Positions 1 to 23,700 of a stretch of DNA of 31,476 nucleotides are shown one piece after another (within the stretch, counting starts at the first letter, position 1; every line of letters starts with the position of its first letter). A program made the position numbers and the translations under genes. The stretch comes from a virus, in IMG/VR virus record IMGVR_UViG_3300025151_004699, positions 1 through 31,476 of that record; one strand, 5' to 3'. The notes beneath the pieces were generated by a model. The model was not told the DNA's origin, did not search any database, and saw nothing but the letters and a program-made list of their open reading frames with translations.

Positions 1-1254
1 TTTAGCTGTTTTATCCCAGTTGTATTTTTGCATAGCTAAGTCGCGCTGGCGACTTCCTTCTGCGGCTAGGTCTTTGTCTGGATGCGTTAATGTAGACAAC
101 AGGTCTATAAACTCTTCATTATTTGGAACTGCTCTGTTGCATCCGGTTTCTACCTCTTTAACCGTACATAATGGCTCTACTCCCCAAGCTTCTATATTAT
201 CTATAATAGACTTCATAGCGGAATATCGCACAGAAATAACAGGAACACCGCATTGCGCGGCTTCAAGCTGCGGCATACCAAACCCTTCGCTGTTTGCGTA
301 CTGTACATACAAATCAAAAATGTTATAAATACTTGCCAATTCTTTGGTATTGATTGGATTATTTACTCCAACCAAATGATTGTTAAATGAGTTACACTTA
401 CTGCAAAATTTCATAGAGTTTTGAAACGTCTCTACGGAAATATTTCCACAGTCTCTACACTTGTACGTCATTGTTACCCTTCCAGAAAGACCATACTCCT
501 GTATCAATGAGGGTATGTCCCATCCTGAATCTGGATAATAGGTATGACAGTGTAGAAAAAGATTATCGTTCTTTGTTCTATCTAGTGTCTCTCTAAAGCT
601 CTTGAACAAGTCTGGATAAAGTTTACGTCTTTGGTTTCGCATCACAGTTCCAACGATGGTACAGTCTCTAGAGAGGCCCATAGACTCCTTGTGATCGCCT
701 TTGTTTTCCACTGGGTAAAAGTCTTGACTAGCAGACGGAGGAGCCATGTCAATAAAATTTATATCATCTGACTGAGACCTTAGAACGTCTCTTCCGAATT
801 CACTGTAAGTAAAAACAGAGTCAGCAGAAGCATAGGTATTAATCCATTGCTGATCTTGAGGCGATGCGTCCACAGTAGGCATGATAGCCCAATGAAAGAA
901 ATTCCTAAAAGGAGACCTCTGTTCAAACTCCATCATCCACCAATCACGAATATCCATAACAATATCCGGCATAAAATCTAGCAACACTTGATTGAAAATC
1001 ATGTCTCCAAACTGACAAGACGCGCTGTTGCTATATTTTTCATATATGTCGTCTGTTTTTAAAGGCTTGTTAGCGTATGCTTTCCAGTCTCTAGGGTTCT
1101 CTTTTAGATCGTTCACATCGGCAAAAGTGCAGATCTCAGCAACCTCTATACCATCTACTTTGTTTAGCCTAGACAAAACCTCGTTTGTGTATACAGAGTA
1201 TCCAGTGGGAAGCCAAGAAGCCTCGGATACAAACAAAACTTTTTTATTTCTCAT
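1..1254 (-). CDS. GT4-like glycosyltransferase with inserted zinc ribbon (C-terminus cut by window edge)
   Basis: The frame is open from an ATG at 1254 to base 1, giving 418 residues with no stop, so the C-terminus lies outside. The product looks like a GT-B fold retaining glycosyltransferase of family GT4. The N-terminus has the Rossmann-like strand KKVLFVSEA followed by LPTGYS. The C-terminal lobe carries EGFGMPQLEAAQCGVPVI, whose two glutamates (about E323 and E331) fit the EX7E nucleotide-sugar motif. Between the lobes sits a zinc-ribbon-like insert with C266-x2-C269 and C284-x2-C287, unusual for the family. The start overlaps the ssb stop by 11 bases, with AAGGA about 9 bases upstream. 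The family call is firm. The acceptor (host glycan, virion protein or phage DNA) is unknown. Confidence 0.8.
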   Translation of the reverse strand, partial: MRNKKVLFVSEASWLPTGYSVYTNEVLSRLNKVDGIEVAEICTFADVNDLKENPRDWKAYANKPLKTDDIYEKYSNSASCQFGDMIFNQVLLDFMPDIVMDIRDWWMMEFEQRSPFRNFFHWAIMPTVDASPQDQQWINTYASADSVFTYSEFGRDVLRSQSDDINFIDMAPPSASQDFYPVENKGDHKESMGLSRDCTIVGTVMRNQRRKLYPDLFKSFRETLDRTKNDNLFLHCHTYYPDSGWDIPSLIQEYGLSGRVTMTYKCRDCGNISVETFQNSMKFCSKCNSFNNHLVGVNNPINTKELASIYNIFDLYVQYANSEGFGMPQLEAAQCGVPVISVRYSAMKSIIDNIEAWGVEPLCTVKEVETGCNRAVPNNEEFIDLLSTLTHPDKDLAAEGSRQRDLAMQKYNWDKTAK

Positions 1255-1594
1255 TTAGCCAATCCTTACTACCGTGGAATATTTTAAAACTAAGCACTCT
1301 AAAATAAGTCCTATCTATACCGTCGAACTCAGGGCTAGTGTTACCAAATGTAGATCTAGCTTCACATTCTACCAGCATAGTAGAGTCTGGTGTTAATTTT
1401 TCATATATAGTGCTTGCTGCTGAATCCCAAGCCTCAAACTCTAGACAGTTATATTCTCTTTTCTTTTTACCGTTTTTACTTTTCCTAAAAGACTCTACAT
1501 CCATAGAAAAACGTATGCGTGGGGTTGTATTGGCGTTTGTAAATTCTATTTCTACGTCTGGACTCAGACGGCCCAAAAAAGTACACTTGTTCAT
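1244..1594 (-). CDS. ssb: Single-stranded DNA-binding protein
   Basis: This is a 116-residue OB-fold protein of the bacterial SSB type. It starts MNKCTFLGRLSPDVEI, which matches the usual N-terminal strand (N..x.GRL..DPE), and continues with beta strands around NCLEFEAW and TYFRVLSFKIF. It is shorter than cellular SSB (about 170 residues). It ends in DWLNEK rather than the acidic DDDIPF-like tip that recruits partner proteins, so it may not engage host partners that way. An SD-like GAGG lies 5 bases before the ATG. It follows the dnaE C-half by 7 bases and overlaps the glycosyltransferase start, so it belongs to the polymerase transcription unit. Role by family: coating single-stranded DNA at the phage fork. 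The SSB call is likely, though sequence similarity in this family is low. Confidence 0.75.
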   Translation of the reverse strand: MNKCTFLGRLSPDVEIEFTNANTTPRIRFSMDVESFRKSKNGKKKREYNCLEFEAWDSAASTIYEKLTPDSTMLVECEARSTFGNTSPEFDGIDRTYFRVLSFKIFHGSKDWLNEK

Positions 1595-1601
1595 ATTTAC
1601 C

Positions 1602-3167
1602 TCAAATTTGTATTGCTTTATTTACGATTACCGATCCTTTGTCTTTTTTAGAAGGTTCACAAAGTAGCATTACTGTGTTCTCTTCCAGTAAAACGTTTTT
1701 ATATTCTTCGTAAGTGTCTGGAAAAACAGTTACAGACTCTAGACCTCCGCTATTGTCTTCAACAGAAAGAAATGCCATTTCCTGACCAGGGTTTTTTCCG
1801 TTTCTTGTTTTGACTACCCTGATAGAATTTATAACAACGGCCAAGCTTATTTTCTTCTTCTTTAAACCATTAGCAACGTCTTCGCAATAGTCTGTAGCTA
1901 CTTCGGCATCGTCTACTTTGCTGCATGTCAAAGAGCATCCTAACAACTTAGCTTCTTGGGTTGCTACAAAAGCAGCATGATCTTCTAGGTCGTAAAATGG
2001 TTTTTCTAAAGAGTTCTTTATGTTTAACACTGTTTCCATTCTTCTAGAGTTTATTTTGGTGTTTTCCATAAGTACTCCTACTGCGCCCGCAAGGGTTTTG
2101 GATGCTGTGCTTGGGCTTTTCTGGTTTTCTACAATGGCAGACTGCTCGCGGGCAGAAAGCTGTTTCCAGCTATCAAACTCATAAAGCATTTTTCTTCTGC
2201 TTTCTCTGTTATTTTTGCCATTAAAAGCCCCAACAGATATCATTGCAATAGCCGCTCTCTTGTTTATCTTTAAAGGATGTATTACTTTAGTGATACAGTC
2301 TATCCAAGAGTATTCCGAAATGTCTCCAGCGGTTTCAATTTTCTCACATTCTTTAGTTCCTACGCCTTTTACGTGCCTAAGACCAAAGTAAATCAAATCT
2401 TTATTATCGTCTAGCTCAAAGTCTGTTTGCAATCTAGAAAGTCTTGGAGGGTACACTTCTATACCTGCTGATTTTGCGTCCATAACGAGTTGCTTTATCT
2501 CGACTTCTGACTTTGGTTTTTTGTCCGATCTATTTAAATATGTTCTGTAAAACTTTTTAAGCCTGTGGGTTTTGCAGTACGCAGACCAGTAAGCGTTGAT
2601 CGCATAAGCAACAGCATGACTCTTATTGAATGCATACCTACTAGACTTTTCAATCCAAGAAAATATCTCTTCCGCTGCTTTTTGACTAACGGTTTCCTGT
2701 TCCTGTGTTCCTTTTACGAACTTCTTTTTAATCTCTTCCATCAAATCGGCCTTCTTTTTACCGATAGCCTTTCTTAGATCATCAGCTTCTTTCAGATTAA
2801 AACCAGCTAGCTGTTGAGCTATCTTCATAGACTGTTCTTGGTACACAAGTACGCCGTAGGTTTCTTTCAAAATAGGCTCCAGAGACTCATGTAGATACTC
2901 TACAGGATAATCCGTATTGCCAGACTTCCTATAGGCATAAAGCTGGGTCATGCTCTTTTTAGTTTTTTCGTCTTTAGCTTTCAATGTTCCCGGTCTGATT
3001 AAAGAAATTGTTGCCGCTAGTTCGATAATGCTTCTTGGAGCAACTTCTTTAGCCCAGTGCTTTCCTAAGTTTGACTCTAGCTGAAAAACGCCTTTTGTTC
3101 TGCCTTCGCAGATCAAATCCCAAACTTCTTCATCTTCAAAGTTGTTAATATCAAATTTATTTTTCAT
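1602..3167 (-). CDS. dnaE: DNA polymerase III alpha subunit, C-terminal half (fingers, HhH and OB regions)
   Basis: This 521-residue protein aligns by eye to bacterial DnaE from just after the palm to the end. Near its N-terminus it has the fingers motif TKGVFQLES and then ISLIRPGTL (E. coli VFQLES and ALFRPGPL). It continues with YQEQSMKIAQQLAGF, RKAIGKKK and SRYAFNKSHAVAYA, then a helix-hairpin-helix segment (FGLRHVKGVG), the EAKLLGCSL block, and an OB-fold end (VEDNSGGLESVTVFPD). It has none of the catalytic aspartates; these are in the partner gene at 4271-5884. I chose the ATG at 3167 over an upstream in-frame TTG at 3188; it overlaps the 68-aa gene by 11 bases. The two products presumably assemble into one polymerase. 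Confidence 0.9.
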   Translation of the reverse strand: MKNKFDINNFEDEEVWDLICEGRTKGVFQLESNLGKHWAKEVAPRSIIELAATISLIRPGTLKAKDEKTKKSMTQLYAYRKSGNTDYPVEYLHESLEPILKETYGVLVYQEQSMKIAQQLAGFNLKEADDLRKAIGKKKADLMEEIKKKFVKGTQEQETVSQKAAEEIFSWIEKSSRYAFNKSHAVAYAINAYWSAYCKTHRLKKFYRTYLNRSDKKPKSEVEIKQLVMDAKSAGIEVYPPRLSRLQTDFELDDNKDLIYFGLRHVKGVGTKECEKIETAGDISEYSWIDCITKVIHPLKINKRAAIAMISVGAFNGKNNRESRRKMLYEFDSWKQLSAREQSAIVENQKSPSTASKTLAGAVGVLMENTKINSRRMETVLNIKNSLEKPFYDLEDHAAFVATQEAKLLGCSLTCSKVDDAEVATDYCEDVANGLKKKKISLAVVINSIRVVKTRNGKNPGQEMAFLSVEDNSGGLESVTVFPDTYEEYKNVLLEENTVMLLCEPSKKDKGSVIVNKAIQI

Positions 3168-3363
3168 GGTGTTTTTTTCGTAACTCAATTGATAACCTAT
3201 TCATTTCTTCATCAAGCTCTTCTTGTTTCTTTTGACGAGCCAATGTGTCTTCTTGTATCTGTTTTTTATAAACCTTTGCTAGTTCGTCCATTTCTACGTA
3301 TGTAAAATTACCATGAACGTCAGAAATTTTAATCCGTTTTGGTCGCGATTTATTACTTGACAT
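3157..3363 (-). CDS. Small charged protein between the polymerase halves, unrecognised
   Basis: This encodes 68 residues beginning MSSNKSRPKRIK. The ATG at 3363 is preferred over one four codons upstream because GGAGAG (3368-3373) lies 4 bases before it. The reading frame overlaps the exonuclease 3' end by 11 bases and the dnaE C-half start by 11 bases. After a basic N-terminus and a short segment (ISDVHGNFTYVEMDEL), the C-terminal half is very rich in K, E, Q and R without proline, which predicts one long helix or coiled coil. I recognise no family. The location between exonuclease and polymerase suggests a small replisome accessory or linker, but that is only inference. Confidence 0.6.
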   Translation of the reverse strand: MSSNKSRPKRIKISDVHGNFTYVEMDELAKVYKKQIQEDTLARQKKQEELDEEMNRLSIELRKKHHEK

Positions 3364-4048
3364 ACAACTCTCCATTAGCGAAGGCTTTTTGAAACTTTGT
3401 CTTTTCTAAAAGCGTTCTTTGGAATTTCATAAACTTAATCATCAAATTTGCAGTGTCTTTTACATCTTGGAGGGCGTCGTGAGCATTTTCTTTGCTCTGT
3501 TGACCCATTCCAAAGTAATCTCGCATGTAATCCATTCCATACCCTTTTACTTCTTGATTGTTTTCAAACCAGCAATAAATATGCTGCATAACATCTATTG
3601 TAAAAATAGGATTAAAAATGCCCTGCTTGTCTCTTTTTTTATCTACTGGACCATATTGTTGGCACATACGTTCCACGATGGGCATATCGTAACCGTTGAT
3701 ATTGTATCCGGCTGCAATTGGCGCGTAGTAGCTAGTCTTTTTAAAGTTGTACTCGTTGCAGAATTGAGCGAATTTTTTCCACACAGTCTTTGGAAGCGGA
3801 CCCTTTGAAATTTCTTCTCTTGTTTTTCTGGTTACTTCCAAAGCCTTGTCTTCCACGGGGTCAAGGCCAGCTTTTATGCACTCTTCGTCATCTACGATGC
3901 ACCGCATTTTGCTTTCAAACACCCCGCCAGGTTGTAATTCTAGTTTTCGAGCATGGATAGCTACGGCAGCGATCTGTGTTGGTTGACACTTGTAAGGATT
4001 GCGTCCTGTTGTTTCAAAGTCGAAAACAATAATATCTCTATAGTTCAT
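3353..4048 (-). CDS. DEDDh 3'-5' exonuclease, DnaQ/epsilon-like
   Basis: This 231-residue protein has all the motifs of the DEDDh exonuclease family. Exo I is VFDFETTG with D10 and E12, Exo II is YNINGYDMPIVERM with D121, and Exo III is HDALQDVKDTANL with H190 and D195. The family removes mispaired 3' ends from DNA or trims RNA. Lying between the two halves of the phage DnaE, it is most simply the proofreading exonuclease for that polymerase, equivalent to the epsilon subunit. This is consistent with the polymerase PHP domain appearing inactive. It starts 2 bases after the 74-aa gene, with AGAGG about 5 bases upstream. A general nuclease role (RNase T-like or host DNA turnover) cannot be excluded. 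Confidence 0.88.
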   Translation of the reverse strand: MNYRDIIVFDFETTGRNPYKCQPTQIAAVAIHARKLELQPGGVFESKMRCIVDDEECIKAGLDPVEDKALEVTRKTREEISKGPLPKTVWKKFAQFCNEYNFKKTSYYAPIAAGYNINGYDMPIVERMCQQYGPVDKKRDKQGIFNPIFTIDVMQHIYCWFENNQEVKGYGMDYMRDYFGMGQQSKENAHDALQDVKDTANLMIKFMKFQRTLLEKTKFQKAFANGELYVK

Positions 4049-4049
4049 A

Positions 4050-4274
4050 TTAGCCTCTTTTATTTTTGTTGATTAATTCTATAAATTTATTAACAGCATC
4101 GTCTATGTTTTTAAAAAGATGGTATTCTTTACTTCTATCTGACCAAACTTGATACTCATTATTGCTAACAAGTCTCTTGTAGTGGTTAGAAAGATTGCAT
4201 ATAGAAACACCCCTATAATCAATAGAGCATCCTGAAAAAATAACTGATTTATAATCTTCTTTTGTGGCTTTCAT
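4050..4274 (-). CDS. Small protein of unknown function downstream of the dnaE N-half
   Basis: This encodes 74 residues starting MKATKEDYKSVIF. The ATG overlaps the TGA of the dnaE N-half in an ATGA arrangement, with GGAG about 9 bases upstream, so it is probably translationally coupled. The middle (VSICNLSNHYKRL, then EYQVWSDRSKEYHLF) and the end (IDDAVNKFIELINKNK) look like a small alpha/beta fold with strands displaying charged side chains and a final helix. I recognise no family and see no catalytic motif. Its position suggests a part in, or passive presence beside, the split polymerase. Confidence 0.6.
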   Translation of the reverse strand: MKATKEDYKSVIFSGCSIDYRGVSICNLSNHYKRLVSNNEYQVWSDRSKEYHLFKNIDDAVNKFIELINKNKRG

Positions 4275-5884
4275 TCACAAATCTCCATAATTTTACTTAG
4301 TAGGTCAATGCCTAGAATATCGAATTTAACATGCCCTTGGGCTTCAAGAGCAACCATTTCAAATTGTACAATCTTCTTGCCGCTTTTATCAGTGACCATA
4401 GGGCATACCTTATTTAGTTCATATTTAGAAATAATCACGCCCGCAGGATGCTTACCTTGAGACTTGTTTGTTCCTTCTATAATCATAGCCTGCTTAAACG
4501 TTTCTGACATTGGTCCAGCCAAATTTCCATCTTTGTCAAGATAGCACCATTTTTTTAGATTGCTAGATTCGTTGATTAGCGCCCATCTAATGATAGACCT
4601 GTCTTCCTTGTCCATCAACTCTAATTGGTCAGAAATCATAGCTTCGTCTGGTATACAGTCTGTTATCTCATTCATTTCAGAAAAGCTTACATTGTCATTA
4701 ATCCTCATGACTTCTTTAAGAGCCGATCTTCCTTGCAATCTTCCATATGTCACCATTTGAGATACGTTTTCTTTGCCATACTTATTTTTAACGTATTCAA
4801 TAACCTCATCCCTGTGTTCTGCCGGAACATCTATATCAACATCGGGCAAGGACACATGATCCTCGGTATTACGTCCCTCATTGTAGAATCTCTCAAACAA
4901 TAAGTCAAACTCAATTGGATCAACTTCTGTAATTCCTAAGAGGTAAGAAACTAAGCATCCAGCAGCAGAACCTCTTCCGGGTCCAGCAAGCCAACCTCTT
5001 CCTTTCACATAGTTGACAATATCTTGCACAATCAAGAAGTATCCACTTAGTCTAGCTTTAAAAATAACTTCTAATTCATTTTTTACTCTGTCTAAGTATT
5101 CTTGTTTGCTTTTAACATTAGAAACTTTACCTTTAGGAACTAGCTTATTTTTCCAGCCGCCTCTACATAGATCTTTCAAATATTCATCTTCTGTAAAACC
5201 TTTAGGGCAGGAGAAGTTAGGAAGCATTGGCGCGCTCTTTACTTCATAAGATTCGCACATGTCTGAGATATTTTTAACCAATTCCATTTCTTTTTTAGAT
5301 TTTGTTTTCTGTGGAAGATGGAAGGTTTCATTAGTAAAATATTTACTGTTTTCAAAATCTTGTTTTGTGCTGATCTTTTTTTCTACTTTGGGAAGGGTAA
5401 GCTTCATGCCGGAACAAAGAACCACTCTATGAGCGTCTACTTCTTCTTTTGAGACATAAACAACTTCTCTTTTCTGGTAGTCGTACTTGAATACAAGATT
5501 TTTAAGATTTGTTATCTTTTCCCAAGCCTTAATAACCGTTGAAGAGTTTGTTACACAAATGAGATTTCCACTTTTGGCTATGTTGAAAACTTCTATAATG
5601 TTCACACCTTCTTCAACTATGCCGATTGTTCTCATAAGCTCTATCCAGCCGCTTCTGTTTCTTGCGTAAAGGCAAAAATCCCCGTAGTCGCAACCTATGA
5701 TAGGTTTTACACCATTGGCTTTGCAAGATTCGTGAAACTCGATAGCTCCAGAAACAGTCTTGTAGTCAGCAATTGCGCATGATTCAATGTCTAGTTCTGC
5801 ACATTTGGAAGCCAGCTTCTCAGGCTTGCAGAAACCTTTCAAAAGACTATAATGAGTCTTGCAATTTAGTGGTATTAGATTCAT
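4271..5884 (-). CDS. dnaE: DNA polymerase III alpha subunit, N-terminal half (PHP, palm, thumb)
   Basis: This 537-residue protein covers the PHP, palm and thumb regions of bacterial DnaE. Diagnostic motifs are GPGRGSAAG (301-309) followed by SYLLGITEVDP, then LPDVDID with catalytic D348 and D350, GRLQGRSALKEV, GKHPAGVIIS (477-485), and GHVKFDILGI with the third catalytic aspartate at D522. It ends 15 residues later, where E. coli alpha passes from palm to fingers; the rest is encoded at 1602-3167. The PHP domain is degenerate: the usual HxH near the N-terminus reads N7-C-K9, so the metal site is probably lost. I chose the ATG at 5884 over an in-frame TTG at 5893. The gene overlaps the upstream glycosyltransferase by 38 bases. 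Confidence 0.92.
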   Translation of the reverse strand: MNLIPLNCKTHYSLLKGFCKPEKLASKCAELDIESCAIADYKTVSGAIEFHESCKANGVKPIIGCDYGDFCLYARNRSGWIELMRTIGIVEEGVNIIEVFNIAKSGNLICVTNSSTVIKAWEKITNLKNLVFKYDYQKREVVYVSKEEVDAHRVVLCSGMKLTLPKVEKKISTKQDFENSKYFTNETFHLPQKTKSKKEMELVKNISDMCESYEVKSAPMLPNFSCPKGFTEDEYLKDLCRGGWKNKLVPKGKVSNVKSKQEYLDRVKNELEVIFKARLSGYFLIVQDIVNYVKGRGWLAGPGRGSAAGCLVSYLLGITEVDPIEFDLLFERFYNEGRNTEDHVSLPDVDIDVPAEHRDEVIEYVKNKYGKENVSQMVTYGRLQGRSALKEVMRINDNVSFSEMNEITDCIPDEAMISDQLELMDKEDRSIIRWALINESSNLKKWCYLDKDGNLAGPMSETFKQAMIIEGTNKSQGKHPAGVIISKYELNKVCPMVTDKSGKKIVQFEMVALEAQGHVKFDILGIDLLSKIMEICE

Positions 5885-6713
5885 ATTCTTCAATCTTACT
5901 TTTCAATATTTTTGACAAATTATTAGGGTCCAACACTTTCATATTATACTGAGCCAATGAAGAAAAGACACCCTTATTTTCAATATTGTAAAGAAAATTC
6001 AAAGTTTCTGATAGCGTCTTGTCTAAAAACTCCCATCTTCCATTAAAAAATGGCGCAATTTCATAATACCAAAACTTAGGAAGTCTTTCTACCAATGGAA
6101 AAGCACCCATCATCAGCGACTCAAAAAATCGAAACGTCTCTTCACTGGTCGCTCCAGATGGGCAAAGACAAACCTTAGAGTTGTTTAAAAGGTTTAGGTA
6201 CTCTTTGTGCGGCAGACCTTTAGCAAATCCATCAGTATAAATTACTTTACTTTTGAATTTGTCTCCTGTTTCCGATAGCATGGATTCTAGACATCTTTTA
6301 AACTTATCTCTAGTGCCAGTGTGCGGCATCTGACCAACGAAACAAAAATCATATTCTCTTTCTGAAATAAGTTTGATAGGTATTTCATCATCCCTGTCCA
6401 CGAAATTTCCCAAAGGAAGAGGAAAAACTTTGGGGTGATGCACGGGATATCCCCAATGATCTAACATGGCATAGTTGTGAAAAATGAAATGAACCCTACT
6501 GTCTTCTATGTCTCTTGGTGGGCTATGTATTTCCCTAGACAAAGACATCACTATATTCTTTCTTGTGTCTGCAAATAGCTCTAGCGGCTGCATGTCATAT
6601 TTTACAACAACTCTATACTCATCACTCAACGATCCTGCTAAAAACTCAGAGGTTTCTAGCAGGAACTTGCTGCCTTTATCAAAGTCGCCTTTTAAATCAA
6701 TTAATTGTGCCAT
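5847..6713 (-). CDS. Exostosin-like glycosyltransferase
   Basis: This 288-residue protein resembles exostosin/GT47-type glycosyltransferases. Its C-terminal half has the characteristic stretch VCLCPSGATSEETFRFFESL followed by MMGAFPLV (about 181-208), where the glutamates sit in the nucleotide-sugar site of GT-B enzymes. Before it is DFCFVGQMPHTGTRDKFK, the usual FxGxxx..R..R block. There is no signal peptide or transmembrane segment, so it should be cytoplasmic. The start overlaps the upstream nuclease stop as TAATG, and the end overlaps the polymerase gene by 38 bases. Being inside a replication operon, it might glycosylate modified bases in phage DNA, but a glycan or virion target is equally possible. 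Confidence 0.7.
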   Translation of the reverse strand: MAQLIDLKGDFDKGSKFLLETSEFLAGSLSDEYRVVVKYDMQPLELFADTRKNIVMSLSREIHSPPRDIEDSRVHFIFHNYAMLDHWGYPVHHPKVFPLPLGNFVDRDDEIPIKLISEREYDFCFVGQMPHTGTRDKFKRCLESMLSETGDKFKSKVIYTDGFAKGLPHKEYLNLLNNSKVCLCPSGATSEETFRFFESLMMGAFPLVERLPKFWYYEIAPFFNGRWEFLDKTLSETLNFLYNIENKGVFSSLAQYNMKVLDPNNLSKILKSKIEEYESNTTKLQDSL

Positions 6714-7735
6714 TATCCGGGTGCCTCGTAATATCCTATGTTAAAACCTTCTTTAGTACACTCTTTTACCGTTTGTTCATAGCCAATTGTATGAATTCTA
6801 TCTTCTACATACTGACACATTGTGGTGTTTGTGCCCGGCCAGTTGTTTTTATAAAAATGACACAGCTTTTGGCATCTAAAATCTAGTCTCTTTTCGCTTA
6901 TTGGTTTAGGCTTAATGTTTTTCTTAATATCTTCGTATCTAGCACGAAGCATCTCTAGGAAGTTTCTCTGATCAGAATCGTCAAAACACATGCTAAAAGG
7001 TCCACCATCTCTAGTGAAAAATATAGACATGATAGATTGATCGTATTGTGGATAAAGTTTTGATATGGCATAATTGTACAGTAGTAGTTGAGGATCTTTA
7101 GTTAGCTTATTATAGTCTTTAACCTCTCCTGTTGCCCAATTTTTTCTTTGTCCTGTCTTCCAGTCAATAACCTCGATAATGTTTTCAGAAACGCTTGTAA
7201 CTAGGTCGATTGTTCCTTTGATGGCTAAATTACCTTTAATCGTTTCACCGTTTGGCATTTCGTATTCATACTTTGCCCACTCTTCTTCGATAGGTATGTC
7301 AAACGTAGGCTCTGTGTCTACTATGGTCCTGTTCCTTGGATCAAATTGACCATCGTTAAAGGTCAACGCCGTCTCTACTTGCTTCTCACAAAACTTAAAA
7401 TCGGCAGGATAATACTTATGACCATCCTGCGAGGTGTAGTGTTCATAACTATCCTTCATAAGTTGAGCCACAAACTTTTTTGTTCCTAGTTTTCTAGGAG
7501 TAAACTCTACCTCCCCAAGGGCATCGTCTACTATTTTTAGATTTTTAGATTTTGGATTTTCTTGTAATTCTTTTTTGCAAGCAGCTAGGCACTCCATAAC
7601 CTTATGACAGGCGGTTCCTTGCTGTGCCTTTTTGCCGGATTCTGATCTATGTCCTAAAACATAAGTCATAAAGTATTGCATTTCGCAAAACTCATAGTTT
7701 CCATAGCTGGAAGATCTAATATATGTAACTATCAT
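6713..7735 (-). CDS. Cas4/RecB-type PD-(D/E)XK nuclease with probable Fe-S cysteines
   Basis: This 340-residue protein has the full RecB-family nuclease motif set. These are H44 in GTACHKVMECL, D177 in KGTIDLVT, the core EVIDWKTGQ with D191 and K193, and the QxxxY-like DPQLLLYNYA with Q216 and Y220. Four cysteines, C17 near the N-terminus and C288, C292 and C307 at the C-terminus, match the arrangement that binds a 4Fe-4S cluster in Cas4 and AddB nucleases. In phages such proteins act as exonucleases in recombination or DNA processing. There is no CRISPR array or Cas1/Cas2 here, so a recombination or replication role beside RecA and DnaE is more likely. The ATG at 7735 follows AAGGA. Confidence 0.85.
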   Translation of the reverse strand: MIVTYIRSSSYGNYEFCEMQYFMTYVLGHRSESGKKAQQGTACHKVMECLAACKKELQENPKSKNLKIVDDALGEVEFTPRKLGTKKFVAQLMKDSYEHYTSQDGHKYYPADFKFCEKQVETALTFNDGQFDPRNRTIVDTEPTFDIPIEEEWAKYEYEMPNGETIKGNLAIKGTIDLVTSVSENIIEVIDWKTGQRKNWATGEVKDYNKLTKDPQLLLYNYAISKLYPQYDQSIMSIFFTRDGGPFSMCFDDSDQRNFLEMLRARYEDIKKNIKPKPISEKRLDFRCQKLCHFYKNNWPGTNTTMCQYVEDRIHTIGYEQTVKECTKEGFNIGYYEAPG

Positions 7736-7736
7736 T

Positions 7737-8633
7737 TTATTTCCTTATCTGGTGTAGTGGCGTTTTTTTTGTTTTAGACATATCGTCTCCAAGCCAGCCG
7801 CTGCTGTCCAGATTAGATATCAATTCTTTGTTCACTTCATCAATAGTCATTGTTGAATTGTCCATAATTAGATCACACGCACTAATCACAGGATCTGCGT
7901 CTTCGCTAGAATGACTATCTTCTTTAACGTTCCTAGCAAGACCTACACACATACTAAGATCTCCCCAGTATTCTTTGATCTTTAAAAGTTCGTCTGTAAA
8001 TCTCATATCGTCAATTACTGCTAGAAGAGGTTTTTCTTGATCAATTTTTTTTATAGTTCTGTTTATCCAAACAGGTTCCCAGATTTTACGCATAACATCT
8101 GTCCCAAGAAATTGCATAAACTCGCGTGCAGTCATTGGTCCGGGTTCATGATGGGTCAGTTTATAATAATCTGATGGAAATCCATGAGGATCAAGACTAG
8201 CTTCTTGCACGTCACCGAAAATGTCTCCTGTGCTATCGGTAACAACTCCCGGCATATTCTCCCACAGCAAATGCTCCTGCACTTGGTTCTTCTGCTCGTC
8301 TGTTCCAAAGCAGCACTCATGAGGAATGTCGAATAGCTCTACACATATTTTTTTTAGTTCGCTTGCAAAGCTATATCTTTTTACAAATGGAAACATAACG
8401 CCTTCTGCCCAATGTAAAAATTCTCCATCTCTTCTTGAGATGTCTAGTTTAAGAAAGCTGTCTTCTTCTTTGCCGTCTTCTCCCACACCAGCATTTACAA
8501 ATAGTTCTCCTTCGTTTGTTATTACAAAGTCTTTAATTATATCAAAACATCTCATTTGATATCCATGAAGAAAGTTGCAAAGCGTAGATTTGCCTGATTG
8601 TTTTCTTCCGGCAATGGCTAAAACTCTAGTCAT
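7737..8633 (-). CDS. Deoxynucleoside monophosphate kinase-like P-loop protein
   Basis: This 298-residue protein opens with a P-loop, RVLAIAGRKQSGKSTL (G9 to T17). It has the features of phage deoxynucleotide monophosphate kinases: YSFASELKKICVELFDI, then GPMTAREFMQFLGTDVMRKI, EPVWINRTI, and LLAVIDDMRFTDEL. The family phosphorylates dNMPs to dNDPs in the cytoplasm, restoring precursors from degraded host DNA. Here it would work with the ribonucleotide reductase and dUTPase encoded upstream. It is somewhat longer than typical members (about 240-250 residues), with an acidic insert around residues 40-65. Its ATG overlaps the primase stop (ATGA). The P-loop and family are clear; the nucleotide preference is not. 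Confidence 0.85.
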   Translation of the reverse strand: MTRVLAIAGRKQSGKSTLCNFLHGYQMRCFDIIKDFVITNEGELFVNAGVGEDGKEEDSFLKLDISRRDGEFLHWAEGVMFPFVKRYSFASELKKICVELFDIPHECCFGTDEQKNQVQEHLLWENMPGVVTDSTGDIFGDVQEASLDPHGFPSDYYKLTHHEPGPMTAREFMQFLGTDVMRKIWEPVWINRTIKKIDQEKPLLAVIDDMRFTDELLKIKEYWGDLSMCVGLARNVKEDSHSSEDADPVISACDLIMDNSTMTIDEVNKELISNLDSSGWLGDDMSKTKKTPLHQIRK

Positions 8634-9742
8634 ATTCTTATTGTCTCCAAGTCACTTAGTTGTGGATCTAATTCTAAACGTAATTCCTCAATAGACATGT
8701 CTCCCACATCTTTTGCTGAGATTTTTGGTCTATAGTAGTTGAATCTTCTTCCTGCCTTTTGAACTATCTGATTGGCGGCTTTTTTACCCGCATCGTCATA
8801 ATCTGTAAGTATTATAAGATTCATAACCCCGACCTCTTCTAGTAAAACTAACTGGTCGTCACTTAAAGCAGAACCAAAAATGCTTACCGAGTTTCTGTAT
8901 CCAGATTCGTACATTCTCCATACATCGCCCTGCCCTTCTAATATAAACAAAGTTGGATATTTAAACCCGTCTTCCATGAAATCTTTCGCAATATTTATTC
9001 CATATAGCGAATTTTTTTTAAATCCTTTACTGTGCAGCCATTTTTGCTTAGATTTTTCTGTTTTATCTCTTCCTACGCAACCAAGATAGTTATAGTTTAT
9101 GTCATAGATAGGAACGACTGCCCTGTTATGCATAGGCTTTCCAAACTCTGAACAGTCGCCAACATCAAACATGGTTAGAGTTTCTTGTTTATACCCTCTA
9201 TTTATGTAATAAGAAGATGGTATATCTAGTTTTTCTTGGATGCTTTCTCTAGAAAACTTTTGCTCTGGGCTAGTGTATTTCTTTTGAAAAAGTTCTAGCA
9301 GTTTTGACTTTGTATTTTTTACACGGTTCGTCTCAGAAGGCTCTATCTTTGACTTTCCTAAAAACTCTAAACAAAAATTAAAAGCCTCATTTAATGAAAC
9401 GCTATTTCCAGACTGATAAGATAATACGCCTCTTACAAATCCAAATATGTTTTCTTTCCACTCTTCTTCGCAATGACAGGTCCAACAGTTCCAGTTTCCT
9501 TTTACTGTTTCCCCATCCGTAAATATGGTACAACCTTCTGGACTGTCGCCGCCATGTACGGGACAGGGAAAAGAAAACCTGTTATGGTATTCTACGTATT
9601 CTACACCTAGTCTATCTAGCAGTTCTTCTATTCTTTCAGAAAGAAGATCACAGACTCTAGCTAGTTCAGGCTGGGATAAGGTCTTCTTCTTGTTCTGTTT
9701 CAAAGCCTTCTTCTCTTGATCTTGCATTATTGTATATCTCAT
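8630..9742 (-). CDS. dnaG: DnaG-type DNA primase (CHC2 zinc finger plus Toprim)
   Basis: This 370-residue protein is a compact DnaG-like primase. The zinc-binding domain has C60, H63, C86 and C89 (FPCPVH ... NCWTC). The Toprim catalytic domain shows LFILEGQGDVW with E269 and LIILTDYDDAG with D314, D316 and D317. It lacks a helicase domain and the DnaB-binding C-terminal domain is short or absent, as in many phage primases. It makes RNA primers at the fork with the DnaB encoded upstream. The ATG at 9742 is followed by another in-frame ATG at 9727, and neither has a convincing SD. Either way it overlaps the dnaB 3' end by 62-77 bases, the longest overlap in this window. Confidence 0.9.
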   Translation of the reverse strand: MRYTIMQDQEKKALKQNKKKTLSQPELARVCDLLSERIEELLDRLGVEYVEYHNRFSFPCPVHGGDSPEGCTIFTDGETVKGNWNCWTCHCEEEWKENIFGFVRGVLSYQSGNSVSLNEAFNFCLEFLGKSKIEPSETNRVKNTKSKLLELFQKKYTSPEQKFSRESIQEKLDIPSSYYINRGYKQETLTMFDVGDCSEFGKPMHNRAVVPIYDINYNYLGCVGRDKTEKSKQKWLHSKGFKKNSLYGINIAKDFMEDGFKYPTLFILEGQGDVWRMYESGYRNSVSIFGSALSDDQLVLLEEVGVMNLIILTDYDDAGKKAANQIVQKAGRRFNYYRPKISAKDVGDMSIEELRLELDPQLSDLETIRI

Positions 9743-11114
9743 CTCTGCTTAAACCTTCTTCAATTCTACCAATAGACCCAAACATTTTTATACTGACATA
9801 GTTTCCGTCCTGCATCCCCTCGCCATGCCTAGTTTCTACTGTCACAATCTTTCTGTCTCCATTTCGCACGTTATCTTCTGCCATTTCTTCGTCAGATTTA
9901 CGCTTAAAGATTGAAAAACTTGTACACAGCCAAACAAGTCTGTCTGATCCAGATATAACGTCTGTAGTCTCTTTAGTAATCCCGTCTCTGTTTAGCTGCA
10001 CAAAGGCCAAACATGGCACATCATATTTTACCATAAAGTTATGAAGCTTAGTAATCTGAAATCCTAAAACTTGAAATTCTGCAACATTGTTAGAGATAGC
10101 GCTAGAGTCCATGAGTTTCAAGTAGTCGTAAATTATGGCACAGTCGTTTGTTTCACCGTTTTCATCAAATCCGACATGTTGATATATCCATTTTCTCATT
10201 ATTCCAAGTATGTTTTCAAACGGTTGACCAGAAATATTTATGTAGTGATAAGGTATAGTCTTTAGCTCTTCTGCCGCTTTAACAACTTTCTCTTTTTCAA
10301 TTTCGTTTTCTGTAAATTTTCCCGTTGATATCCTTTTGGTTTCTACGCCGCTTAGACAAGCAAGCATCCTGTTCCAGTGGTCTTTTTTTGACATCTCTGT
10401 GTCTAGCACCAAAACAGGAATATTTTTCTTGGCTATGTTTACGGCAACGGAATCTCCAAACATAGATTTACCCACTTTAGGACGAGCAGCAATAAGATCT
10501 ACGCACTTTCTCCTAAGACCTCCACCGATTGCTTGATCGTATCTGTCAAAGCCTGTAGGAATACCAACAAAATCTGAAACGTTTTCTGAAAGGTATTCTA
10601 GATAATCGTCAATATCGTCGCCTATAAGTTCTGTTTTATTTCCAGAAGATTGATAAACGTCTGCTGTGGCGTCTAAGATAGGACTCTCTACTTTGGATAT
10701 GAGGTCCATTACATCTTCTTCGCCAGTTATGTTGTCTAGATCTTTTGAACATAGAGATATAGTCTTCTTAAAGTCTCTAGCTAGTTTTAACTTGGCAAGT
10801 TTTGCAGCGTGAGCTTGTGCGTTTTCTTTGTGTACGGGAAAGTTAAACAAAGACCTAACGAACGATATCTCTTCTTTTGTGTTTATTACATCTTCCATGC
10901 CTAAACTATTTGCGGCAGACAGTATAGAAGAAAGTTCCACTTTGAGATTTTCAGATACGACTTTATATATGCAGCTAAAGATCAACTGATTCATGTCGTC
11001 TGTAAAATGGCTCTCTTCTATGAAATCCATTTCAAGATAAGAATCTAATCCAAATTGACAAAGGGAAGATAATACCGCTCTTTCAGAAGCTAAGTCTTGC
11101 AAGTTTTTTTTCAT
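9666..11114 (-). CDS. dnaB: Replicative DNA helicase, DnaB family
   Basis: This 482-residue protein matches DnaB in domain order. An N-terminal helical domain (ERAVLSSLCQFG ... FTDDMNQLIFSCI) is followed by a linker and a RecA-like motor. The motor has Walker A ARPKVGKS (about 210-217), the DTEMSKKDHWNRMLA block, Walker B AIIYDYLKLMD, and the late AFVQLNRDG and SGSDRLVW motifs. It is a hexameric 5'-3' helicase that unwinds the fork and works with primase. I set the start at the ATG at 11114, eight codons inside the longest frame, because a strong GGGGGAGG (11124-11131) sits 9 bases before it and the ATG forms an ATGA overlap with the preceding stop. Confidence 0.92.
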   Translation of the reverse strand: MKKNLQDLASERAVLSSLCQFGLDSYLEMDFIEESHFTDDMNQLIFSCIYKVVSENLKVELSSILSAANSLGMEDVINTKEEISFVRSLFNFPVHKENAQAHAAKLAKLKLARDFKKTISLCSKDLDNITGEEDVMDLISKVESPILDATADVYQSSGNKTELIGDDIDDYLEYLSENVSDFVGIPTGFDRYDQAIGGGLRRKCVDLIAARPKVGKSMFGDSVAVNIAKKNIPVLVLDTEMSKKDHWNRMLACLSGVETKRISTGKFTENEIEKEKVVKAAEELKTIPYHYINISGQPFENILGIMRKWIYQHVGFDENGETNDCAIIYDYLKLMDSSAISNNVAEFQVLGFQITKLHNFMVKYDVPCLAFVQLNRDGITKETTDVISGSDRLVWLCTSFSIFKRKSDEEMAEDNVRNGDRKIVTVETRHGEGMQDGNYVSIKMFGSIGRIEEGLSRDEIYNNARSREEGFETEQEEDLIPA

Positions 11115-11533
11115 CTGTTGCTGCCTCCCCCTGCACATCTAAAGCAAACATAAAACTCTCTTAAAAATTGAGGATGCACCATTTCTGACTTTCTGCAATG
11201 ATTACAGACTTGCTCAACCTTTTTAAACTTAGGTCTAGATCTAGTAGAAAGAACGATTTCTGGAGTCTTGTTTGCTTCATTCTTATGCTCTGTTCCATCG
11301 TCTACAAAAAGATTCTCTCTTTTTTTTACTTCCACCTGAGTAGATTTTTGTTTAGGCTTATCTCTTTTCATTGTGAAATCGTCTGACGCTATTCTTTCTT
11401 TTGGAGGCTTAGTTTCTTGCTTTGTTTTGTTGACATCCCTTAGTTCATCTGTTTTTGAAAGCTTACTTACAAGTTCAGCTTTTTGTTCTTCTGTCATCAT
11501 ATTCAATAGTGTTTCTACAATGTCTTCGCTCAT
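11111..11533 (-). CDS. Zinc-ribbon protein of unknown function upstream of dnaB
   Basis: This encodes 140 residues. The N-terminus is a short helical acidic segment (MSEDIVETLLNMM then EEQKAELVSKL). The middle, about 35-100, is a lysine- and glutamate-rich, probably disordered linker. The C-terminus is a compact zinc ribbon with C110-x2-C113 and C130-x2-C133 (VCNHCRK ... YVCFRC), ending in a glycine-rich tail. I know no specific family. It sits between a 154-aa gene and dnaB, overlapping both by 4 bases, which suggests a function at the fork such as helicase loading or single-strand DNA contact. A transcription role is also possible. Only the zinc ribbon is evident from sequence. Confidence 0.75.
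   Translation of the reverse strand: MSEDIVETLLNMMTEEQKAELVSKLSKTDELRDVNKTKQETKPPKERIASDDFTMKRDKPKQKSTQVEVKKRENLFVDDGTEHKNEANKTPEIVLSTRSRPKFKKVEQVCNHCRKSEMVHPQFLREFYVCFRCAGGGSNR
11124..11131 (-). promoter_or_regulatory. Ribosome binding site setting the dnaB start
   Basis: GGGGGAGG on the minus strand ends 9 bases before the ATG at 11114. It lies inside the last codons of the preceding zinc-ribbon gene. It supports this ATG over the in-frame start eight codons upstream, which has no comparable site. Confidence 0.7.
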
Positions 11534-20650: not shown

Positions 20651-20724
20651 CCCGGTTCTCTTGAAGACCCGTAATAATTTCTACCAATAGTACCCGCTAA
20701 AGATATGCTTGTTAATCTTGTCAT
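18715..20724 (-). CDS. Tandem right-handed beta-helix surface protein, tailspike-like
   Basis: This encodes 669 residues in two similar halves. Each half starts TITKTIGTNSRDYST followed by SLWEADLDN, continues with VGECYNDS and a HDGTAG block, and ends with VGSEDYHLR or VGSEDYHLN and a DWDVGADQT or NWDIGADQT block. Starts at residues about 26 and 352 give a unit of about 326 residues. The interior repeats many N, S, I and V residues (NNTIISNNG, KNNLLF), typical of parallel beta-helix rungs. Such proteins form receptor-binding or glycan-cleaving spikes; no catalytic residues can be assigned. The start shares its A with the LamG gene stop (TAATG), so the two are probably co-translated and both virion-surface proteins. 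Confidence 0.7.
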   Translation of the reverse strand: MTRLTSISLAGTIGRNYYGSSREPGTITKTIGTNSRDYSTMSLWEADLDNANVYMEGDDAVGECYNDSAFGPVDINGGGTIGLNTVTLKAAAGEAHDGTAGTGVKIQTTANWQRPLRVACGPNIPVKVEGLEITRYHISAFDLVTFPDNQNNKTILRCIIHESYLPETNNRAGIGAGFWYIFAANNVIYNIKYGWSSNNYYTGCKLLNNTIISNNGPAIYTRERNISKNTVKNNLLFRRDGHPAYSINGTPPTQTPYWDTNMVGTGSIYGSNTYTDVSMDNMFISTVVGSEDYHLRSQFDYENYAPAVGLGINVSSETFKPGISGFDTGLATQDIDHLSRGQNWDIGADQTPTTITKTIGTNSRDYSTISLWEADLDNEDIYFYEDRAIGECYNDSTFYEAFSVDGGDTVGLYSVRLEAARSDRHDGTAGSGVTISPTSSYQPSSITANIPVSFEYLAFDQRDMYGVQITANASSYLFQMSRCLVYSGLNYMFKNYGTSIVDNSIFYDSSNSGNQGASIYSGGGTLDCINTTLADHVYGVRRDSGTVTVVNSISVSDPSSGNIRVADFDGAITQKYNISSDASASGVGFLTSQAFDQTMFKSILVGSEDYHLNPESSAVRAGYNALSDYSSYPTIAIDIDGIARSESQDWDVGADQTGAGGGMLLLGIG

Positions 20725-23700
20725 TATCCAATAACCTTATTGTTAAACGCTGTATTGATTATTTGGTCTGAGTTAAACTTATCCGGCCTATCTGAAATTT
20801 GTCTATCTATCTTTTCTACCCATAAGGAGCTTATAAGGTCATTTCCTATAGAGTTTGGCCCTTGTGCGACAATCAAGAATCCCGACTTGAAGTCGTGTTC
20901 TATATAGCTTTCCGAAGCAAGATTAAAGTCTGTATTTGATTTAACGTTGCCTAAAATGTCCATGTAGCTCCCAACAGACGCACTAGAATTCATGCTGTGT
21001 ATTTTGTAACCTTGATCGTAAAAACTAAATGCGGCAGAAGCGGCAAAAGAAGCATCACAATGAACAGAACCTACTCTATATACGCCCGGTCCATCTGGAA
21101 GGTCTAACCTAAAAATGAGTCCATTAGTACCTACATGCTTAAAAAATATTCCTGCTAATTGAGGGTCTAAAGAAGAGTTTCTGTCTCTAGTTCTGGTTGC
21201 GTCCCAAACGTAAAATCCGTAACCTCTATCTGAGTTGTAATAAGCGTCAGCTAGTGAGCAAACATCAAACCCGCTTGGGTCGGTTACAAACCCTTCTGTT
21301 TGTCTAAAGTTTACACCCTTAAATTTAACACCTCCAGAGATTCCCCTAGATCTAGAAAGATGAAGTATTTCTGATTCGGTCAGCGACCTGTTGAACCACC
21401 TAATGTCGTCCATCTTGCCTTCGTAGGCATAGAGGGATGAGCCATCTATATTGTTTCCAATGGTGATATCATTGCTGAGAGTAATCGGGTCTGATGCAGT
21501 TCTTGTGATCGGCTTTAATTCTCCATCAAAGTATGCCTTGATTGTGTTTGAGCCAGCCTCTCGCTGAAAGAGAACGTGAACCCAAGTGTTGGTCAAAACA
21601 TTGTTGTATGTGTTGCCAGAACCGTCTGAGTTTGGTCTTGCGGATGCCTGCACCTTTGCTGGACCGACTGTTCCAAAACAACTGAGTGCGTTGTTTTCGG
21701 TGTAGTCCATGTCCCACATGTATTCAGTTCCATTCGCTTCCCAGTTCATCCAGTAAGACAAACAGAAGGCGTCTGTAGTTCCAGTACCAACTCCACCAAG
21801 AATTTTTATGTAGTCATCTGTGCCGTCAAAGTCAAAGGCGCGACTGCCCCCCGAACCAGACGATGCAACAGTTGCCATTCCGCCTTGATAAGTTCCATGA
21901 TTTTCGTTGCCGCTTATATCTCTAGCGCCGTCTTTGAGAGAGGGGCAAATCCACAACTCCTCATCGCCAAGCCCTACGTATTGAACAGGAGCGCCCAATA
22001 CCCCGCGAGATGAAGACAAATGAGACACCTGTGCTGGCGATAAGGGGTAATCGTAGCATCTAAAGTCGTCTATTTTACCTTTAAAATTACTGCTACCGAT
22101 AGTAAACGGATTTCCGTATTTTTCCGTAGTGACTCCAGGGTTTCTTGTAACAGAGCTTACTAATACTCCATTTATGTAAAAATGTGCCGCTGCATGATCC
22201 AGCACAAATGCCCAATGCTGCCATCCAGCATCAATAGCATCTGCCAATGTTTGCACAGTTTGCGATGCCAAAGTACCAAACCCGCCAGAGTCTAAAGTGC
22301 CAACTACGGATGTGTAAAACGATTTTGGGTTTTGATATACGTTGCCAGTAGTAATCCGAACGCTAGCCGTTCCCCCATTGGCTCCTGTATGTTCTTGAAA
22401 GAGTTGTACATAAGCGTCGTTAGCATCATTATCATTATAGCACCACATAGACCAAGAAAGCGTTCTTAGTCCGCCGCCATATACTTTAGTGGTAGTTATT
22501 GTATCGTCTATTCCGTCAAATTCATAAGCTCTAGAACCTCCATAAGCACTATCTTCAACCAAGGAAGCTCCATTGTTTAGCGTCAGAGTTCTTGCACTGG
22601 GAGATAGGTCAACATGATTTGGCTGTAGGGTTGGACAAGCCCAAAATATTTCATCGCCAAGCCCAACAGGAGGTGGACCCTCTATACCCCGCGAGGAGGA
22701 TAGGTGTATTATTTCCTTTTGGGTAAGAACACGGTCATACACCCGAATGTCGTCATAGCGAGACCACCGGAGTACACTTCCAATCTCATAGCTGTCAGAA
22801 ATAGTTGTTGATGCACTTCTTGTCTGTTGTCCATCAAGTACTCCATCAATATAGATGGAAGCTATTTGTTCGTTTGGATCATAGGTTAAAACGACATTAT
22901 GCCATACGTTTTGGTTAATGAAAGTAGTTGCATAATTTCCATGAACCCCATCTAAGGTAAGTCGGTAGCGCTTGTTGCTCCTGCTGTCTCCAAATCTGGT
23001 TACGCCAGAAGCAGAGTCTTTCAAGTGTACGGAACTGCTGCCGATACTGCTGGAGCTTACCCAGAAAGACAAACTCTTGACCTCAAATGGACTTGAGAAA
23101 GTACCAGTCATAGAGTCGGTATCGGACAAACCTTGATAAAAATGGTCGTAATTAATGGTCATTCCATTGAAGGTTCCATTGTTTCCATTACCTGACAGAT
23201 CGACAGGACTAGTCCTATTTAGCGTTGCACAAAGCCACAGCTTCTCATCTCCGAGGCCATTGTATACAGAACCCTGCACCCCCCGCGACGAAGCTAGGTG
23301 TGTGATCTCTGCTTGGGTGAGAGGTCTGTCATAGACTCGAATATCATCGTAGTACTTGGATGATGTTACTGTAGACCCACTGGATGAACCAATTTTGAAT
23401 GAAGATGTTGTCGCAGCGGGTGAGTTAAGGGTTAGCGATTGGTGAAGCACGCCATCAACATAAATGTCTGTTGTGGTTCCATTGCTTACTTTCGCAAAGT
23501 GAAACCAACCACTTGACGGCAGCGTTGGGGTGATCTGCCCAAAGTTTTGTCGCTTTATATAATCATTTGAATTTTCGCTATATAGTGCGTCTGACCATCC
23601 TGACGAACTAAACGCATTGTTTCCACAGAACCACGATGTGCCATTTTCAATCGCTGACCTCTTTATCCACATTGAAACAGAGGTAAAAGTCGTCCCGATG

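Follow-up and report, generated by a model that had tools for sequence, protein, structure and literature searches.

The DnaE-type (C-family) alpha subunit of DNA polymerase III in the IMG/VR phage contig IMGVR_UViG_3300025151_004699 is encoded by two minus-strand genes, and its products very probably form a heterodimer, in which an N-half (PHP-palm-thumb) and a C-half (fingers-HhH-OB) are docked non-covalently. All 31,476 nucleotides of this contig were analysed and are called the window below. The two genes are separate, intact and conserved together; their order is fixed, and selection on them is purifying. The lineage is a large family of uncultured bacterial viruses, whose sole recognised DNA-copying enzyme is made as two proteins that probably must assemble in the cell. 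Since the cut falls between two functional domains and an exonuclease gene lies in between, the enzyme is probably assembled from parts. The halves, the genes between them and the rest of the replication block are arranged as follows:

1244..1594, minus strand: single-strand DNA-binding protein, the last gene of the replication block (Pfam SSB, E 5.9e-9)
1602..3167, minus strand: C-half of DNA polymerase III alpha (fingers, HhH, OB fold), 521 aa (Pfam, PHROG, predicted structure)
3157..3375, minus strand: charged small gene, 68-72 aa, no function assigned (ORF; sporadic in relatives)
3353..4048, minus strand: DEDDh 3'-5' exonuclease, putative proofreading (epsilon-like) subunit, 231 aa (Pfam, PHROG, active-site residues)
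4050..4274, minus strand: small gene, 74 aa, no function assigned, with a 4-base overlap with the N-half stop (ATGA) (ORF)
4271..5884, minus strand: N-half of DNA polymerase III alpha (PHP, palm, thumb), 537 aa (Pfam, PHROG, predicted structure)
6713..7735, minus strand: PD-(D/E)XK (RecB-like) exonuclease, replication block (Pfam PF12705, E 1.4e-18)
7737..8633, minus strand: deoxynucleoside monophosphate kinase, replication block (phrog_139, E 9.2e-24)
8630..9742, minus strand: DNA primase, replication block (phrog_47, E 1.6e-40)
9666..11138, minus strand: DnaB-like replicative helicase, replication block (phrog_19, E 2.5e-50)

Both reading frames lie where the earlier note had placed them, and their ends at the cut were described correctly. 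The N-half stops 15 residues past the third catalytic aspartate (D522, within KFDILGI), which is invariant together with D348 and D350 in 23 aligned relatives. It matched PHP (PF02811, E 3.9e-14) and DNA_pol3_alpha (PF07733) in Pfam and phrog_405 in PHROG (E 4.8e-112), and its predicted model (pLDDT 88.5) fits residues 4-570 of E. coli alpha 2hnh (Z 36.3, rmsd 3.6 A, 494 aligned). The PHP domain was recognised both by Pfam and by a match of the predicted fold to the PHP domain of DnaE. Its metal-site motif is partly lost in the window clade, where NCKTH replaces HxHxxYS, and activity of this domain is therefore doubtful. The C-half opens just ahead of the fingers motif (VFQLES from residue 27), matched DNA_pol3_finger (PF17657) and HHH_6 (PF14579) above the cut-off and aligned with positions 620-1054 of phrog_405. 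Its model (pLDDT 87.9) corresponds to residues 581-906 of E. coli alpha in 2hnh (Z 19.6), or to 582-1073 in 5fku. The OB fold was assigned to residues 422-521 by the predicted structure, the Pfam OB match being below the cut-off. The tau-binding C-terminal domain is absent, as nothing follows the OB fold in the C-half and the 5fku alignment stops at 1073 of 1160. The two models tile E. coli alpha with the cut at about 570-581, and since the N-half covers 4-570 while the C-half starts from 581, about ten linker residues are missing at most. Within this margin the halves consist of complete domains with no homologous sequence lost, as had been supposed.

The same split, with an identical cut, was found in 141 sequence-distinct viral loci spanning the junction, which are 36-92% identical. 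Relatives with a continuous gene, the case that the earlier note had named as refuting, were looked for, and none of these loci (0/141) is uncut. In contrast, all 78 cellular DnaE controls found with the same query are uncut (78/78), i.e. bacterial DnaE is one polypeptide, while the phage alpha is two. The recurrence of the split with the exonuclease between the halves was borne out as well: the order N-exonuclease-C is kept in 70/70 clusters (90% identity). The arrangement was met again in independent metagenomes, at 92% and at 78% identity, which strongly argues against an assembly artefact. Catalytic aspartates and motifs are intact in 169/169 complete copies, dN/dS of both halves (roughly 0.02-0.11) indicates purifying selection, and the split clade received full support in three trees. 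Because the family includes relatives of only about 40% identity, the split design can be regarded as old and successful. In 14 long relatives (contigs of 103-244 kb, not necessarily complete genomes) a single N-half and a single fingers domain were counted per contig, and no further polymerase of family A, B or C was detected. Divergence of the two halves is correlated (r 0.84), but this is no evidence for their contact, because the replication block is inherited as a whole, which accounts for it: the partial r was 0.10 once the block had been removed.

Between the halves an exonuclease and two small genes had been predicted, and all three are there, with the start of the gene at 3157 being either 3375 or 3363. 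The exonuclease matched RNase_T in Pfam (E 1.7e-13) and phrog_192 (DNA polymerase exonuclease subunit, E 1.3e-22), and its closest solved structure is the PolC-type exonuclease 2p1j (E 3.1e-8). Its residues D10, E12, D121, H190 and D195 are invariant in 16 relatives. The 74-aa gene had no match in Pfam, PHROG or NCBIfam; its dN/dS is about 0.06-0.09 (versus two close relatives), and it is present in 43/70 clusters. It was not found in a distant subfamily, where an unrelated 59-aa gene occupies its slot, and at some loci the slot after the N-half is empty, the N-half and the exonuclease overlapping. Short ORFs comparable to the charged small gene occur in loci L002 and L103, and this gene is missing where the exonuclease and the C-half overlap. 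Neither small gene is conserved family-wide, so they are unlikely to bridge the halves, and this role was rejected for both. Thus, of the suggestion that the split is a functional design and not a simple frameshift, the stable split gene arrangement stands (141 split, 0 continuous), while the part ascribed to the small genes does not.

Non-covalent assembly of the N-half and the C-half, already proposed from the sequence, appears to be the best explanation, because the halves have no plausible way to be joined: whole genes, many of them overlapping, separate them, which makes an intein, an intron or a frameshift implausible as the means. Protein trans-splicing by an intein at the palm/fingers junction is very improbable, even though true split inteins do occur elsewhere in the polymerase of relatives (GPGRG|SAAG in L077, L078, L083 and L085; FNK|S in L027 and L078). 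In all relatives examined the N-half stops about 15-20 residues past the last catalytic Asp and the C-half begins directly at the fingers homology, and neither side is extended by Hint-like sequence; in the distant subfamily the C-half does carry a short extension containing CGC, without a counterpart on the N-half. In the window, no intein domain was matched by Pfam in either half, DnaE homology reaches both ends at the cut, and nothing intein-like terminates the N-half, in line with the earlier reading. Since neither end shows Hint sequence, the intein was rejected. The cut also differs, as had been pointed out, from the cyanobacterial DnaE split-intein site, which (YAFNKSH) is intact in the C-half. 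Cyanobacterial alpha likewise comes from two genes, but there the cut is inside the fingers and intein halves ligate the protein, whereas the window cut is upstream and intein-less. A self-splicing intron that holds the intervening genes, so that mRNA splicing yields one continuous polymerase, is only slightly less improbable. Introns with endonuclease genes are frequent in phage polymerase genes, HNH genes are present in some of the slots between the halves, and in Bacillus phage KLEB27-3 and Alicyclobacillus phage KKP_3916 endonuclease or other genes separate polymerase pieces. However, a ribozyme would lack room, because the N-half and the exonuclease overlap by about 8 bases in several relatives and the exonuclease and the C-half by 4-20 bases in many; the C-half, moreover, possesses its own start codon. 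Rfam gave nothing at the gathering threshold or at E up to 1, a negative that is weak by itself, for it gave none in KLEB27-3 (L303) either and its sensitivity is unproven. The intron was rejected for want of non-coding room in many relatives.

If the halves are indeed docked non-covalently, the exonuclease might be a structural bridge holding them in an obligate N-exonuclease-C heterotrimer. It is the only gene always present between the halves, and the three cistrons often overlap. Nevertheless, this is unlikely: epsilon of E. coli contacts the PHP domain and the clamp but is not what holds the fingers to the palm, and in two cultured phages, phiT1 and P1201, the cut is in the same linker with no exonuclease between the halves. 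By analogy with epsilon, the window exonuclease, as the presumed proofreading subunit, would probably attach to the PHP domain of the N-half and would not span palm and fingers. Equally doubtful is an obligate three-part replicase, in which the proofreading subunit and palm/fingers docking are coupled and assembly of the parts switches between polymerisation and editing. If it existed, as many as four translation products would be put together into a single polymerase in relatives with additional split inteins, and two different joining principles would be at work. Much less probable is a reading in which the phage genome is copied by host DNA polymerase III, one half being a fragment that decays or serves regulation. 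Some host parts are probably used, since a phage beta clamp was not found and the C-half lacks the tau-binding domain; but both halves are under strong purifying selection with all catalytic motifs kept down to 36% identity, and the replication block has its own helicase, primase, SSB and exonuclease.

In the heterodimer that we favour, the N-half would bring PHP, palm and thumb with the entire catalytic triad, and the C-half fingers, HhH and OB fold, each being a complete-domain set likely to fold by itself. They would dock, and regain polymerase activity, through the palm/fingers interface, which in continuous DnaE is bridged by a flexible linker. The break may have arisen from a mobile element that interrupted a formerly continuous gene; homing-type HNH genes and endonuclease VII genes are found repeatedly in the slots that separate the halves. 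In replicative polymerases the fingers move against the palm in each catalytic cycle; a natural cut at this point therefore shows where the chain may be broken with its function retained, and offers a ready two-part C-family polymerase. The replicative family B polymerase of Methanothermobacter thermautotrophicus also consists of two polypeptides and works as a non-covalent heterodimer, but has an unrelated fold and another cut.

Domains and their order, the catalytic triad, HhH and OB fold are shared with bacterial DnaE (E. coli 2hnh, 5fkv; Mycobacterium tuberculosis 5lew), and the match of the predicted structures extends over both phage halves; the tau-binding C-terminal domain of E. coli DnaE is what the phage alpha lacks. 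Splits of DnaE in other forms are already known, while the lineage-wide intein-less form appears to be new: no description was found in the papers searched. Group 2.2 jumbo phages have a minimal Pol III alpha, made up of nucleotidyltransferase core and template-binding domain, as two standalone proteins proposed to reconstitute the enzyme, but without PHP and all other Pol III domains, with distant genes and a family B polymerase alongside (Iyer et al. 2021; PMC7824862). The window alpha, in contrast, is nearly complete (PHP, HhH and OB fold are present), its genes share one operon with the exonuclease, and no family B polymerase (PF00136) was matched in the 14 long relatives. In Cellulophaga phage phiST, Tenacibaculum phage Larrie, and Bacillus phages G and Jayan, as well as in KKP_3916, DnaE is annotated in two or more pieces, but the cuts are elsewhere, often with endonuclease genes or intein-like ends.

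Closest in the position of the cut are Corynebacterium phage P1201 (gp59/gp58, NC_009816) and Rossellomorea phage phiT1 (gp20/gp18, PV767480), both cultured and with both halves annotated; as the same palm/fingers linker is cut in them, it evidently tolerates a break. Unlike the window clade, they are single cases, and in P1201 the ORFs overlap and relatives at 59% are continuous. Together with the relatives bearing split inteins at other sites, these phages make ligated and non-ligated joints comparable in one enzyme. A quick tree set phiT1 apart from the split clade, but a single clade remained compatible with the AU test (p 0.70; 0.46 with a careful tree), and for this reason an independent origin of the phiT1 split is not claimed. 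The nearest uncut sister varied, being Mycobacterium and Rhodococcus phages in the quick tree and, weakly, P1201 in another.

In the window, a 31,476-base IMG/VR virus record, a replication block lies on the minus strand in this gene order:

DnaB-like helicase, minus strand
primase, minus strand
dNMP kinase, minus strand
PD-(D/E)XK exonuclease, minus strand
glycosyltransferase-like gene, minus strand
4271–5884, minus strand, N-half of DNA polymerase III alpha
4050–4274, minus strand, 74-aa gene
3353–4048, minus strand, DEDDh exonuclease
3157–3375, minus strand, small charged gene
1602–3167, minus strand, C-half of DNA polymerase III alpha
SSB, minus strand

PHP, palm, thumb and all three catalytic aspartates belong to the N-half; fingers, HhH and OB fold belong to the C-half, and profiles of both match E. 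coli and Thermus alpha end to end. In confident AlphaFold2 models (pLDDT 88.5 and pTM 0.83 for the N-half, 87.9 and 0.75 for the C-half) the former aligns with E. coli alpha residues 4–570 and the latter from 581 on, parting at about 570–581, the palm-to-fingers linker of E. coli alpha. The cut spares every domain, in agreement with the earlier note, which described each half as a set of complete domains. The tau-binding C-terminal domain is missing from the split alpha.

The split with the exonuclease between its halves, whose recurrence the earlier note proposed to search for, proved general among relatives. IMG/VR scans gave 158 sequence-distinct viral loci, 17 of them incomplete; all 141 that span the junction are split and none carries the continuous DnaE that would have spoken against a genuine division. 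As a control, the same query found 80 cellular DnaE loci; 78 read through the junction in a single frame, and no split occurred among the 80. The C-half is missing from 14 loci: in 13 the contig ends soon after the N-half, and in L060 (L numbers denote loci of relatives or named phages) the exonuclease is followed by other genes and then the contig end. The 169 loci with complete halves form 83 clusters at 95% identity and 70 at 90%, clustering also merging loci taken twice from one contig, and the order N-exonuclease-C holds in 70/70 of the latter. Three trees each set the split clade apart by a branch with full support. In L153 (4385–5943) the C-half lies in two broken frames, probably by frameshift or assembly error.

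Catalytic aspartates are intact in 169/169 complete copies, and dN/dS is about 0.02–0.11 for both halves, approximate because dS is near saturation. Each of 14 related contigs (103–244 kb, possibly partial) has a single N-half and a single fingers domain; neither a family A or B polymerase nor a beta clamp was detected in them. This is strong evidence that these phages have no other polymerase of family A, B or C and no beta clamp, falling short of proof since the contigs may be partial.

As ways of joining the halves, intein, intron and frameshift are either excluded or highly improbable, because the cut has no Hint sequence, one to several genes separate the halves and the cistrons overlap in many relatives; the earlier opinion that neither a simple frameshift nor a split intein is involved thus stands. 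Instead, the two halves probably associate non-covalently across the palm/fingers interface, and the DEDDh exonuclease probably acts as proofreading subunit. Universality of the exonuclease among split relatives fits a core-subunit role; bridging does not follow from it. The 74-aa gene, earlier counted as part of the split design, is not required as a bridge, since many relatives lack it or have an unrelated 59-aa gene in its place. The replacing family (about 59 aa, ELAVGDKF...SCC..., no Pfam match) sits between N-half and exonuclease in L053, L054, L056, L058, L063, L066, L070 and others. In a distant subfamily (L054, L056, L061, L062, L065, L066, L081) the C-half has an N-terminal extension with a conserved CGC motif, possibly a metal site or docking element.

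In some relatives the two slots between the halves hold HNH or endonuclease VII genes: HNH-like in L088, L211, L218 and L147, endonuclease VII-like in L003, L195, L204 and L218, with homing-type genes also in L031 and L045. Pfam comparison covered only the L211 and L218 genes and confirmed endonuclease VII in L218. The N-half is cut again at GPGRG|SAAG by split inteins (N-intein CF[IV]P[DE]T..., C-intein ...NVEG[IL]GVHN) in L077 (5666–8726), L078 (7637–10028), L083 (5566–8723; weak Hint or intein Pfam matches for its N-intein) and L085 (7287–10429). In L027 (3497–6440) and L078 (10855–13824), N- and C-intein sequences accompany a cut of the C-half at FNK|S, which is three residues away from the cyanobacterial DnaE site. 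Judged by sequence, the L078 polymerase, having both cuts, is in four pieces, with two joining inteins plus the intein-less cut. In Bacillus phage G (L322, 3246–14009) DnaE extends over gp329, gp331 and gp339, separated by a homing endonuclease and other genes; gp329 has a cis intein, again at GPGRG|SAAG. Thus, the DnaE gene of these phages is a repeated target of mobile elements; plausibly, one such element would have broken the gene at the linker and then been lost.

Rossellomorea phage phiT1 (gp20/gp18) is cut at the same linker with a 49-aa gene between; it may share its origin with the present clade or have split separately (AU p 0.46). Corynebacterium phage P1201 (gp59/gp58) is also cut there, but its relatives at 59% identity have continuous DnaE, so the break either arose separately or is a frameshift of that single genome. 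Its ORFs overlap by 29 bases (L321, 46317–46345) and GGAGG precedes the GTG start of gp58; a true second cistron, programmed frameshift and sequencing error are the alternatives. In Cellulophaga phage phiST (L086, 5692–9292) and Tenacibaculum phage Larrie (L302, 3701–7281) the DnaE cut falls within the palm; unusual extensions (...EGDxxIKY stop; M...TAPKLVNG) could represent an atypical split intein or what is left of one. Endonuclease-looking genes divide the DnaE of Alicyclobacillus phage KKP_3916 (L319, 1968–8582) into at least four pieces.

Public records annotate DnaE in pieces for cultured phages, and our literature search found no paper discussing a palm/fingers split. The minimal two-gene Pol III of jumbo phages (Iyer et al. 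2021, PMC7824862) does without PHP and other domains and occurs beside a family B polymerase, whereas the present alpha has PHP, HhH and OB fold and its clade has no detected family B polymerase in 14 contigs. Split DnaE is therefore known in other forms, and the present palm/fingers variant appears new.

PF07596-family genes that begin with a prepilin-type FTL[IV]ELLVVI sequence occur at four loci:

L323 (contig G011), 21960–22853, above Pfam cut-off
L324 (contig G014), 95752–96522, above Pfam cut-off
L325 (contig G006), 73848–74801, above Pfam cut-off
L060, 12128–13201, seen by eye

Planctomycetota carry an expanded set of this family, which hints at the host. In the window, glycosyltransferase-like genes, one GT group 1 and the other exostosin GT47-like, flank the replication genes (1–1254 and 5847–6713); similar moron genes differ from relative to relative. 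Positions 20724–28586 form one 2620-aa ORF matching phage virion structural protein families.
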